This document shows, piece by piece, positions 8,555 through 61,560 of a stretch of DNA of 64,000 nucleotides. Numbering within the stretch: position 1 is the stretch's first letter; the number at the start of each line of letters is the position of its first letter. A program made the position numbers and the translations under genes. The stretch is from Halobacteriales archaeon YIM A00010. Its GTDB lineage: Archaea; Halobacteriota; Halobacteria; Halobacteriales; Haloarculaceae. The stretch is taken from NCBI GenBank assembly GCA_025041175.1, contig JAKCFJ010000001.1, positions 2,621,526-2,685,525 on the forward strand. The letters are read 5' to 3'. The notes beneath the pieces were generated by a model that saw only the letters and a list, made by a program, of their open reading frames with translations, searched no databases and had not been told where the DNA came from.

Positions 8555-8578
8555 TATGGATTTCTACCTTTTTCTTCA

Positions 8579-8780
8579 CCCACCTTTTTCCGCTCGGGTG
8601 TGCTACAAAAGACGCTTCGCGCCTTTTGGCATCTCGCAAGAGCGTTGCTCTTGCGGACCTCGCGGAGGCTCCCTCCGCTCAGTAACGAAGGATCTTCGAT
8701 CTTTGGAACCAAGCAAAGCGCACCGCTCGCTCGGAAACGCTGCCGCGAGAACGAAGCGCTCGCGGGAACGGATTTCTGGT
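8579..8780. repeat. Intergenic hairpin array a
   Basis: This fills the gap between aIF-1A and RIO1. It opens with the motif CACCTTTTTCCGCTCGGGTG shared with arrays at 10585, 11890 (inverted) and 61235. It contains a perfect hairpin at 8635-8655 (9-bp stem CGCAAGAGC, loop GTT) whose reverse complement recurs at 61464-61484. Next comes a segment around 8656-8690 that matches 61434-61463 in reverse complement apart from a small rearrangement. A further hairpin around 8690-8706 (GGATC, loop TTC) resembles the GAA/TTC-loop hairpins found inside tnpB. Confidence 0.75.
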
Positions 8781-10870: not shown

Positions 10871-11040
10871 CTTCGGAGTGACTCCCCGACGGAAGTTCAC
10901 TTCAATCAGTAATAACGCCCGTTTCCAGTGATTCGTTTCCTACCTCCCAGCAACTGCCGGCAGAACGAGTTGTTAGTAGAATATAATATTTCTCATTCCG
11001 TCAGTAACTTTATGTATGATGGAGCAGGCAACGATAAACG

Positions 11041-11128
11041 AGGACGCCAGCGTGTCCCGACCGCGCGTTCGTTGAAACGCGCCGGGTGTAGGCGCACCCG
11101 ACGCTGGGGTTCTCACCTGTTAGAACCC
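11041..11128 (+). ncRNA. Putative structured 5' leader or small RNA
   Basis: A TATA-like box CTTTATGTA (11008-11016) predicts a start near 11039, about 90 nt before the ATG at 11129. The interval folds by eye into a three-way junction: P1 11047-11053 with 11101-11107 (7 bp), P2 11063-11069 with 11076-11082 (7 bp, 6-nt loop), P3 11083-11088 with 11095-11100 (6 bp, 6-nt loop). A separate hairpin P4 follows (11108-11113 with 11122-11127) ending one base before the ATG. All pairs are Watson-Crick. Most haloarchaeal mRNAs have no leader, so this is unusual. Which ligand or protein it would bind is unknown. Confidence 0.5.
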
Positions 11129-11275
11129 ATGATGGGGAACGAATCAGAGACACGTAACGGTGTCGCATCGTATCAGGAAACCGAACAGCGCACGCGCTGC
11201 CCAGTGTGTGGTCGGCCGGTTCGTACGCGGCTCGACCACCGGATGGGCTGCCCGCAGGGGCGGTGGTGGCGATGA
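11129..11275 (+). CDS. Small zinc-finger protein
   Basis: 48 residues from the ATG at 11129 (or 47 from 11132). The C-terminus has CPVCGRPVRTRLDHR and MGCPQGRWWR, a C-x2-C ... H ... C arrangement likely to bind one zinc ion. Such tiny zinc-finger proteins are common in haloarchaea and mostly uncharacterised. Its stop overlaps the ATG of the next gene by 4 bp (ATGA at 11272-11275), so the two are coupled. It is preceded by the structured leader at 11041-11128. Confidence 0.6.
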   Translation: MMGNESETRNGVASYQETEQRTRCPVCGRPVRTRLDHRMGCPQGRWWR

Positions 11276-11880
11276 CGTTGCCGTTGTTCCAGTTTCGGAA
11301 TCGGCAGGGCGAGGTCGTGAACCTCTCGGCCGCCACGGATCGGGCGGTGGTGTCGAAAGCGGAGCTGTACCACAGCATCGATGTCGGGGAAGGATTATGG
11401 TGTCGCCGAGCGAAGCTCGGCTGCTAACCAGAAATCTTCGATTTCTGGTGATGTCGCCCGTGTCAGAGCACTGGCTGTGCCCACGCCACGCAGATCGAGC
11501 AGATACTGGCGACCGCCGGGCTTGGCAGGACCACAACGGGCGGCTACGACGAGTTGCCGGGAATTGCGCGGTTCACGCGCTACGCGGCCACCGGTGAGAC
11601 CGTGATCGAATGCTGGTTCGATAACGGCGCGTGCGTGCGCTTTCACGAACAGCGTGATGGCACAGTTGTGCAGTCGGTATTCACGCCCGAGGAGTCACGC
11701 GAACCGGCCGAGATGACCGAAAAACCGGATGTCGACAGCGCGCCCGCCTGTCTGGTCGACACGCTGGTGACCTACTGCCAATATCGACAGCGCGGCGATC
11801 TCGCTGGGTTACGCCAGCGCCACCCCGAGCTGGCGTGCGTCGTCGTCGGTCCCAACGCTGGACACACCGCCGACGACTGA
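11272..11880 (+). pseudogene. Unrecognised gene interrupted by a hairpin insertion element
   Basis: The frame opens at 11272 (MTLPLFQFRNRQGEV...) and meets stops at 11425 and 11449, both inside the hairpin element. It then continues in the same frame to the stop at 11880 (RFTRYAATGETVIECWF...). Removing 51 bp (the 44-bp core at 11406-11449 plus one 7-bp flank) leaves 558 bp, 186 codons, with no stop. I do not recognise the protein; the middle would contain a Cys-rich stretch (WCRPCQSTGC), so it may bind zinc like its upstream partner. As it stands it cannot make a full protein unless the second half starts internally at 11554. Confidence 0.6.
11406..11449. repeat. Two-hairpin insertion element E6
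   Basis: A 44-bp core: hairpin of stem GCCGAGC with loop GAA (11405-11421), linker TGCTAA, hairpin of stem CCAGAAATC with loop TTC (11428-11448). It is flanked by GGTGTCG on the left and GATGTCG on the right. It is identical to the element at 50765-50808 inside tnpB except that the second loop is reversed (TTC here, GAA there). The insert adds TAA and TGA in the host gene's frame. Confidence 0.85.
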
Positions 11881-49606: not shown

Positions 49607-49797
49607 AGCCACATACCCGGCTGTCGCAGGCTTAAACTTTGCCAAGGAGTAGTCCCCGTCCCACCGTGGGTGAGGATGACTCCAACAATCAACAGAGTAC
49701 ACAAAGATTCTTAAGTGATAGCTGTCCAAGTAGAAAGATAGTGGAGCAGACGTTCAAGTATCGGGCATACCTGACAGATGAGATAGCGCGGGAAGTC

Positions 49798-49851
49798 GTT
49801 CGAAAATCGAAGATTTTCGTGATGACGAGAGACTTCGTCTCTCGAACCACG
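49798..49851. repeat. Two-hairpin insertion E1 in tnpB
   Basis: 54 bp, in frame (18 codons). Hairpin 49801-49819 (stem CGAAAATC, loop GAA) is identical to 61415-61433 in array d; second hairpin 49827-49843 (stem GAGAGAC, loop TTC). The linker contains TGATG. The exact ends are inferred by comparison with typical TnpB (EIAREV...RRHINIC). Confidence 0.75.
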
Positions 49852-50241
49852 CGCAGACACATCAACATCTGTCGGGAAGTGTATAATCATGCCCTCGGTC
49901 TCTATAATGCTGCTCCAGATGGTGACAAACCCACCTACAACCACCTGCAGAATCAGCTTCCGAGCTGGAAGCGAAAATGGAACACATGGGCATCGGTGAA
50001 CGCAAAGTGCCTGCAGATGGCCGTCCGACGCATTTTCAACAGTCTCAGCGTCCTCAAGTCCCTCAAATCAAAGGGATATAAGGTTGGGAAGTTGAAGTGG
50101 AAGACCCCGAGAGAGTACCGGAGTATTGTGTTCAATCAGTCCGGTTTTGACGTGGATAGTAACACGGGCCGCACTGACCACGCGACACTTGAACTCTCGA
50201 AACTGTGCGATGACGACGAAGTCATTGATCTCGACTATCAT

Positions 50242-50296
50242 CACCAGAAATCTCCGATTTCTGGTTAGCAGCCAGAACCTGTGGTTCTGGCGGCAT
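50242..50296. repeat. Two-hairpin insertion E2 in tnpB
   Basis: 55 bp. Hairpins 50244-50264 (stem CCAGAAATC, loop TCC) and 50271-50291 (stem GCCAGAACC, loop TGT), linker TTAGCA. Flanked by a 4-bp direct repeat CATC. It brings a stop codon and a +1 shift. The orientation is opposite to E3. Confidence 0.85.
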
Positions 50297-50764
50297 CGGC
50301 CGCTCCCCGAGGACGGAACCATCAAAGAAGTCCGGTTAAAAGAAGAGAAATCGGGAAAATGGTACGTGTCGGTCGTCGTTGATTATGATCCAGAGCACCC
50401 AGAGAAACCCCCTGTTGACAGTATTTCAGTCGAAGATACGGTTGGGATCGATCTCGGCATCCTAAAACTCGTCCACGATTCGAACGGTACCGCTGTGTTG
50501 CCGTTAGATGAGTCTACAGACCGCGAGCGCATTGAAAAGTGCCACCGAGCCCTCGCGCGCAAACAGCACGGCTCGAACAACTGGGAGAAGGCTCGCATCA
50601 AACTCGCTGAAGCCTACGAGACGCTCACGAACAAGCGGACAGATTTCATCGAGAAACTCGCACGCAGTTACACGAAACAGTACGACGCCGTGTTCTTGGA
50701 AGATCTGAACGTGCGTGGGATGCTTGAGCAGGATTCAAACGGCCGGAATATCACGGCGATGTCG

Positions 50765-50808
50765 CCGAGCGAAGCTCGGCTGCTAACCAGAAATCGAAGA
50801 TTTCTGGT
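50765..50808. repeat. Two-hairpin insertion E3 in tnpB
   Basis: A 44-bp core flanked by a perfect 7-bp direct repeat GATGTCG (50758-50764, 50809-50815); 51 bp added in frame. Hairpins: stem GCCGAGC loop GAA (50764-50780) and stem CCAGAAATC loop GAA (50787-50807). Same core as E6 at 11406 except for the reversed second loop. Confidence 0.88.
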
Positions 50809-51001
50809 GATGTCGTGGTATGAGACGTTCTCGACGTTCAAACGACACGGTGATAAAAATGCCTGTCACGTCATCACCGTCTCACCAGAAGGCACGACAA
50901 AGCGGTGCGCGCGGTGTGATGTGGCATCGAGCAAAGCGCTCTGGGTGCGCGAGCATAGTTGTCCGAGTTGTCGGTATGAAGCCAATCGAGACGAAAACGC
51001 G

Positions 51002-51052
51002 GTCGCCAGATGTAATCTGGCGGGCAGCCAGAACGCAAGCGTTCTGGCGACG
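51002..51052. repeat. Two-hairpin insertion E4 in tnpB
   Basis: 51 bp, in frame, just after the RuvC-III aspartate. Hairpins 51004-51022 (stem CGCCAGAT, loop GTA) and 51027-51048 (stem GCCAGAACGC, loop AA). Confidence 0.8.
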
Positions 51053-51219
51053 GCGTTCAACGCACAGAAACTCGGCTTGGAAGAACTGGGCATCGACTAC
51101 GAGATCGATGAACTACTAGGTCTGGGAGAGGCCGAAGATACGTCTGCGGAGACTGCGCTCCCTACGGGTGCAAACCTGAACGACAAGTCGTTGTTCTGTG
51201 TTGTGTCTGCAAAGCGCGT

Positions 51220-51269
51220 TCGCCAGAACCGCAGGTTCTGGCTGGCTGCCAGACGTAGTCTGGCAACGT
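51220..51269. repeat. Two-hairpin insertion E5 in tnpB
   Basis: 50 bp with CGT on both sides. Hairpins 51222-51242 (stem GCCAGAACC, loop GCA) and 51248-51264 (stem GCCAGAC, loop GTA). It shifts the frame within the last 15 codons. Confidence 0.82.
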
Positions 51270-51382
51270 CGTTGAAACAGGAAGCCACGGGCCACCTGTC
51301 CCGGGGTAATTCACACGTTCCGCGTTGGGCGACTGTGGATGTGACCTAGACCATAATAGATAATAAACAATATCTCGACACA

Positions 51383-61234: not shown

Positions 61235-61560
61235 TTGCCCTCCCACCTTTTTTCCGCTCGGGTGCGCTGCGCGCACCCTCGCCTTTGCGAGAGCAAGCTC
61301 TCGCAGTCGTCGGGCGCAGCCCGACTGCTTGAGGCGCGTCGCGCCTCTCTGGCTCCCACTCGCTCCGCTCGCGGGAACGCAAAAAAGATGGGGCAAAAAA
61401 AGCCGCTCGTGGTCCGAAAATCGAAGATTTTCGTCACTGAGCGGAGGGGACCTCCGCGAGGTCCGCAAGAGCAACGCTCTTGCGAGATCACGAAACGGCT
61501 TCGCCGTTTCGAACGACTCCGCTTCGCTACGCTCGCGGTGAGTGTACTCACGTCCCGCTC
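61235..61560. repeat. Intergenic hairpin array d
   Basis: It opens CCACCTTTTTTCCGCTCGGG and holds at least eight perfect hairpins in a row: 61261-61277 (GGTGCGC, loop TGC), 61286-61305 (TGCGAGAGC, loop AA), 61309-61325 (GTCGGGC, GCA), 61331-61347 (GAGGCGC, GTC), 61415-61433 (CGAAAATC, GAA; identical to the unit in tnpB E1), 61448-61464 (GGACCTC, CGC), 61464-61484 (CGCAAGAGC, AAC; reverse complement of 8635-8655) and 61491-61511 (CGAAACGGC, TTC). It also carries the GGGGCAAAAAAAGCCGCTC module of arrays b and c. It lies upstream of aroA. Confidence 0.85.

Follow-up and report, generated by a model that had tools for sequence, protein, structure and literature searches.

A widespread family of very short double-hairpin DNA units in Halobacteria, apparently mobile and repeatedly inserted at one nucleotide of a multicopy gene

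The 51-bp insert that interrupts a 558-bp protein-coding gene of Halobacteriales archaeon YIM A00010 (genome G000) is probably, judging from sequence comparison, a member of a Halobacteria family of minute, non-autonomous mobile DNA elements, which would be moved as single-stranded DNA by a nuclease acting in trans. The anatomy of the unit, its copy number, its empty sites, its repeated insertion at identical nucleotides, and the covariation of its stems are all observed directly in the genomes compared. The family looks like a set of tiny mobile elements that has apparently not been described before; a search of the open-access literature on haloarchaeal REP-like or in-gene palindromic elements returned only the Haloquadratum work on PATEs and SMRs and no earlier description of the unit. 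Positions below refer to the window, the whole 64,000-nt stretch of DNA that was analysed.

Anatomy of the unit

The insert consists of two adjacent hairpins set between short linkers and ends.

11401–11451, + strand: double-hairpin unit, 51 bp, reading TGTC, hairpin 1, TGCTA, hairpin 2, GA (covariance model, 61.2 bits)
11405–11421, + strand: hairpin 1, triloop GAA on a 7-bp stem (GCCGAGC GAA GCTCGGC)
11427–11449, + strand: hairpin 2, triloop TTC on a 10-bp stem (ACCAGAAATC TTC GATTTCTGGT)
11452–11456, + strand: TGTCG, the right target flank, which is host sequence and is present as a single copy in those empty paralogues that have it (in YIM A00010, TGTCG in 4 of 5 carriers and TGCCG in the fifth, versus TGTCG in only 5 of 25 intact copies)

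As the preliminary description had it, the unit brings two stop codons into the otherwise open frame 11272–11880, namely, TAA at 11425–11427 and TGA at 11449–11451. The same description had recognised a 44-bp core at 11406–11449 that recurs at 50765–50808 save for a 3-nt loop. The identity holds, the difference being the loop of hairpin 2 (TTC at the first site and GAA at the second, mutual reverse complements), while the element itself extends beyond this core to the full 51 bp. Neither site is a product of chance, given the covariance-model E-values (6e-21 for the 11401 unit and 4e-20 for the 50760 unit, both rough) and the excess of double hairpins with stems of at least 6 in the window, 14 where 20 first-order Markov shuffles averaged about 1.

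The collected copies follow a common plan, with GATGTC, a 10- or 7-bp stem with its triloop, TGCTA, a second stem with its triloop, and then GATG, and they range from 45 to 57 bp in length. In tandem arrays, hairpins and linkers alternate without interruption; one such array in the YIM A00010 genome (L008, C3:609745-610012) holds at least five units with differing stems and constant linkers. Intergenic hairpin clusters of other linker classes, GACCTC, TCACTGA, AGATCA, and TGCTT among them, lie at 61240–61560 and 8570–8720 of the window, and these are similar to what follows the 558-bp gene copies on their downstream side.

Recurrent insertion in a 31-copy gene family

The interrupted gene belongs to a multicopy family that is repeated together with its upstream elements.

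11046–11118, + strand: conserved structured leader, repeated upstream of family copies
11132–11275, + strand: small zinc-ribbon-like open reading frame, which overlaps the beginning of the interrupted gene and recurs alongside it (DUF7575, E 0.006, below its cut-off)
11272–11880, + strand: interrupted family member, 184–185 aa, with a CxxC...CxH motif; insert between W43 and the invariant C44

A segment of about 1.4 kb comprising promoter, leader, small reading frame, and 184-aa gene is repeated 31 times, at 10928–11880 and at about 30 other places on contig C1. The leader is a candidate structured RNA with several helices, one of them variable in sequence (fold z-score -2.1). All 31 YIM A00010 copies lie on the main chromosome, and the family was not found on plasmids or other replicons; among the 59 genomes searched it is confined to the genus of the window, with about 20 copies in several relatives. 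Searches of the interrupted gene against Pfam, PHROGs, and NCBIfam gave no usable match, and a structure predicted for the family with AlphaFold (mean pLDDT 67) matched nothing in the PDB at E < 0.001.

Twenty-six of the 31 copies are uninterrupted; the remaining five all have a 51-bp unit inserted at one and the same nucleotide. In a sister species (G005), 5 of the 9 complete or near-complete copies have a 55-bp unit with other stems at that nucleotide. All 5 + 5 carriers of the two species have the insert between W43 and C44, and across their paralogues this one nucleotide is occupied by three or more different combinations of stems. The uninterrupted paralogues read across the insertion point and contain TGTCG there once or not at all. 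Homologues thus span both halves of the gene, and most of them are without hairpins; since some paralogues do carry them, the hairpins reflect repeated insertion and are not something the gene had ancestrally. In two other copies (L075 and L077), a different, hairpin-rich insert of about 165 bp lies between the small reading frame and the gene body, the copies being otherwise intact.

The junctions define which bases belong to the element. Sister-species carriers have TGTCG on the left and TGYAA on the right, with no duplication beyond TG, and the left TGTC is therefore element-borne and not a target duplication. The earlier suggestion that the flanking bases belong to the element is accordingly borne out on the left, whereas the TG(TCG) on the right belongs to the target in the host. 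Its companion suggestion, mobility with a target preference, is upheld by empty sites in the 26 paralogues, in acetyltransferase orthologues, and in TnpB homologues, together with repeated insertion at one nucleotide.

Of the three forward frames of the unit, the one used in the 11272–11880 copy is the only one to contain two stops, the other two each offering 17 readable codons. Inactivation of this copy by the insert is very probable. Loss of function is expected of the carriers because of the two stops in YIM A00010 or the frameshift in the sister species, and loss of this copy would be tolerable given the 26 intact ones.

Insertions in other coding genes

A second concentration of inserts is found in a TnpB gene of the window (about 49740–51349), which contains five double hairpins relative to its Natronosalvus and Halolamina homologues; these homologues represent the empty sites and read across.

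49801–49844, + strand: double hairpin of linker class TGATGA in the N-terminal part of TnpB, about 17 extra residues
50241–50295, − strand: 55-bp unit in TnpB at His147, frameshifting
50760–50810, + strand: the unit of 11401–11451 again, its second-hairpin loop inverted (GAA); lies in frame in TnpB and contributes 17 codons
51001–51052, no strand assigned: related double hairpin, 17-codon in-frame TnpB insert
51218–51268, no strand assigned: related double hairpin close to the C-terminal end of TnpB, arranged likewise in the sister species (L214)

Two of the five are clear 17-codon in-frame inserts, and one is a frameshift. The His147 codon provides another case of recurrence, as the same nucleotide is occupied by the 55-bp unit of the window TnpB and, in a second and divergent TnpB of this genome, by a 53-bp unit. 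A double hairpin also occupies what appears to be one shared place in several TnpBs of the genus and in a related sequence from a different genus (L192 at residue ~119, L214 at 1314–1364, L198 at 1408–1458, and L199 at 1412–1462), which may be a further insertion site, either recurrent or inherited.

Beyond TnpB, where the inserts can be in frame (17 codons), a GNAT acetyltransferase gene holds a 57-bp unit with a TGA, and its orthologues in five genomes (G017, G008, G020, G001, and G002) read across; here, as in the 558-bp gene family, the insert brings in a stop. In-frame units further occur in a C2 gene and in the annotated Halocatena marina ABC protein WP_264556347.1, where the right flank is GG, not TG. 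Homologues without the insert were compared for TnpB; the C2 gene and the ABC protein are known from the carrier alone.

Distribution

The preliminary description had placed the same unit at two unlinked coding sites. It is indeed present at both, but the total is far from two: a covariance-model search of the YIM A00010 genome gave 145 strand-wise matches, corresponding to about 70 distinct clusters. Matches were found in 49 of the 59 Halobacteria genomes searched, and the carriers identified in a scan of named genomes include Halocatena, Halolamina, Halalkalicoccus, and Halobium. Judging from those matches and from Halocatena marina plasmids, the genus of the window is probably Halocatena. 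Five of the 13 named-genome matches (Alistipes, Planctomycetota, Leptolyngbya), which are without the two flanking hairpins, were discounted as chance matches. Viral contigs did not contain the exact unit pattern, and an Rfam scan of the region gave no match above threshold.

Perfect stems and DNA-type triloops

Despite strongly varying sequence, the stems of 74 collected units are almost entirely Watson–Crick paired (1248 of 1264 positions, with 9 G-T and 7 other), and even the outermost pair switches between GC and AT (93/54). Among 12 units of equal length, both sides have changed in 9 of 20 pairs, and the covariation score (0.387 vs. 0.125 in shuffles) is far above both controls. The loops are equally distinctive: GNA or TNC accounts for 107 of 140 triloops, and for 57 of the 89 distinct stem-loops, where 12% would be expected, with a C-G closing pair in 48 of 52 distinct stems. 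The sequence cGNAg forms an unusually stable DNA triloop. Ten stems, moreover, are found with the loop in either orientation.

These features, namely, variable stems kept in Watson–Crick pairing, GNA/TNC triloops, perfect arms, and inverted loops, favour a structure that would be maintained at the level of DNA. Template switching within inverted repeats is reported to leave perfect arms and inverted loops (PMC8794818, PMC8604942), and the pattern points to the unit consisting of DNA hairpins that may be held perfect by this process.

Proposed mode of movement

Read on the minus strand, the junctions take the form CA of the host, then TC-hairpin-TAGCA-hairpin-GACA, then YC of the host, in which the element end GACA is fixed and the host target is variable. 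The ends of IS200/IS605-type elements are asymmetric in the same manner, the element-borne end being fixed and the flanking target varying. From this match we infer that the unit may move as single-stranded DNA, inserting between CA and YC on its minus strand. A hairpin-recognising nuclease would act in trans, which we hold as a working hypothesis that may be wrong, and template switching inside the hairpins would then keep the arms perfect and flip the loops. The CA-YC target is too short to account for one site being hit so often.

The identity of the enzyme is constrained by the distribution of candidate transposases. YIM A00010 has four matches to PF01797 (Y1 transposase), each within about 2 kb of TnpB. 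The PF01797 search came up empty in several genomes with 14–41 matches to the unit, and unit-rich genomes of this kind are G016, G034, G001, and G037. The enzyme may therefore be something other than an IS200/IS605 TnpA, or else it has been lost. Unit count and Y1 transposase count are weakly correlated across genomes when the relatedness of the genomes is ignored (rho 0.32, p 0.014).

Alternative explanations

Recurrence at one nucleotide could also arise from a single insertion per species that spread to paralogues by gene conversion, with no targeted insertion. The family evolves in concert, the carriers are scattered over the within-species gene tree, and four YIM A00010 carriers have the same stems, three of them being identical over all 51 bp, all of which such spreading would produce. 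We nevertheless regard it as unlikely, for the carriers have no flank haplotype in common even within 12–30 bp (a weak excess appears only at 120 bp in YIM A00010, p 0.04), those of the sister species resemble one another less around the insert than randomly drawn sets do, the shared nucleotide is occupied by three or more stem combinations, and two TnpBs too far diverged for conversion show recurrence as well. A different challenge concerns the separateness of the family, in that the units might be IS605-type transposon ends left by internal deletion, that is, terminal-only PATEs. A 52-bp terminal-only PATE with strain-specific insertions is on record in Haloquadratum (PMC3119063), and 12 of the 70 clusters in the YIM A00010 genome lie within 2 kb of TnpB versus 1.6 expected; units near TnpB, however, are often inside the gene and not at its ends, and hairpins near some IS605 copies (nearby hairpins, not mapped ends) differ in sequence and loops, which leaves this origin rather doubtful.

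More radically, the insert could be skipped in translation by a ribosomal hop of 51 or 55 nt that starts at TGT and ends at TGY, or be cut from the mRNA, with the full protein still made. Translational bypass has precedents in T4 gene 60 and the mitochondrial byp elements, and by analogy the unit would be an archaeal chromosomal counterpart of byp, the repeated ends of a mobile unit supplying take-off (element TGT) and landing (target TGY) codons, an idea to which we give very little credence. When the unit is removed in silico, the frame is open throughout in 9 of 10 carriers (one of which a contig end truncates), five of these nine having a frame-changing insert of 55 nt; sister-species carriers show no increase in downstream dN/dS (0.092 vs. 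0.107 in the others); and TGT/TGY codons match on either side of the insert. Recent insertion accounts equally well for the open frames, given that the units differ much less among themselves than the genes that host them do, and the matched codons are an automatic product of the repeated ends of the unit. Moreover, the L067 carrier has an extra stop, dN/dS is slightly higher in YIM A00010 carriers (0.195 vs. 0.135), and the unit lies in other frames in the acetyltransferase and TnpB, so that skipping or excision of the insert is highly improbable. Were bypass true, the units would be tolerated thanks to ribosomes hopping over the insert.

Significance

A family of about 50 bp that is mobile in appearance, is present in most Halobacteria genomes sampled, and can strike a single nucleotide of a multicopy gene again and again offers a compact system for studying both minimal hairpin DNA movement in archaea and the enzyme that recognises such DNA. 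The DNA-type triloops, perfect stems, and flipped loops constitute a natural record of template switching. Genome annotation is also affected, as some units add 17–19 codons to proteins and others create apparent pseudogenes.

Comparison with known systems

The closest precedents come from Haloquadratum walsbyi, whose PATEs include 52-bp terminal-only forms and have palindromes matching the ends of IS605-type transposons (PMC3119063). Like PATEs, the unit is haloarchaeal, has palindromes near both ends, lacks terminal inverted repeats and target duplication, and is of similar minimal length, too short for a transposase and suspected of mobilisation in trans. Unlike in PATEs, its stems vary freely between copies while its linkers are fixed, and these linkers are absent from the IS605/TnpB-locus hairpins examined (nearby hairpins, not mapped element ends). 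SMR-A of the same genus is likewise small, frequent, and found in IS605-type elements; it is about 110 bp long, has terminal inverted repeats, lies mostly outside the transposase reading frame, and has an unknown mobiliser (PMC3119063). The unit departs from SMR-A in its size of 45–57 bp, its two internal hairpins in place of terminal inverted repeats, and its frequent location inside reading frames.

The mitochondrial double-hairpin elements, repetitive hairpin-forming sequences whose mobiliser is unknown, resemble the unit in their adjacent hairpin pair, tandem arrays, presence in genes, and paired stem substitutions (PMC2800124). They are organellar and differ in linkers and base composition, with no evidence of common origin. 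With IS200/IS605-type elements the unit shares a fixed element-borne end, a short variable target opposite, and hairpin ends.

REPs are mainly intergenic, carry a GTAG-type tag, and are associated with a lone RAYT gene. The unit recalls REP/BIME sequences (TnpA-REP, or RAYT, systems) as a dispersed palindrome with a proposed single-strand hairpin substrate, but its hairpin feet are GATGTC and TGCTA rather than GTAG-type, its coding insertions are common, and no lone Y1 transposase was found in YIM A00010. Rickettsia palindromic elements (RPEs) are longer and of conserved sequence; they resemble the unit as short palindromic insertions in frame in unrelated protein genes with homologues lacking them, whereas the unit is archaeal and made of two short variable-stem hairpins. 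On the best reading of these comparisons, the unit is an element of the same general sort as PATEs, REPs, and RPEs.
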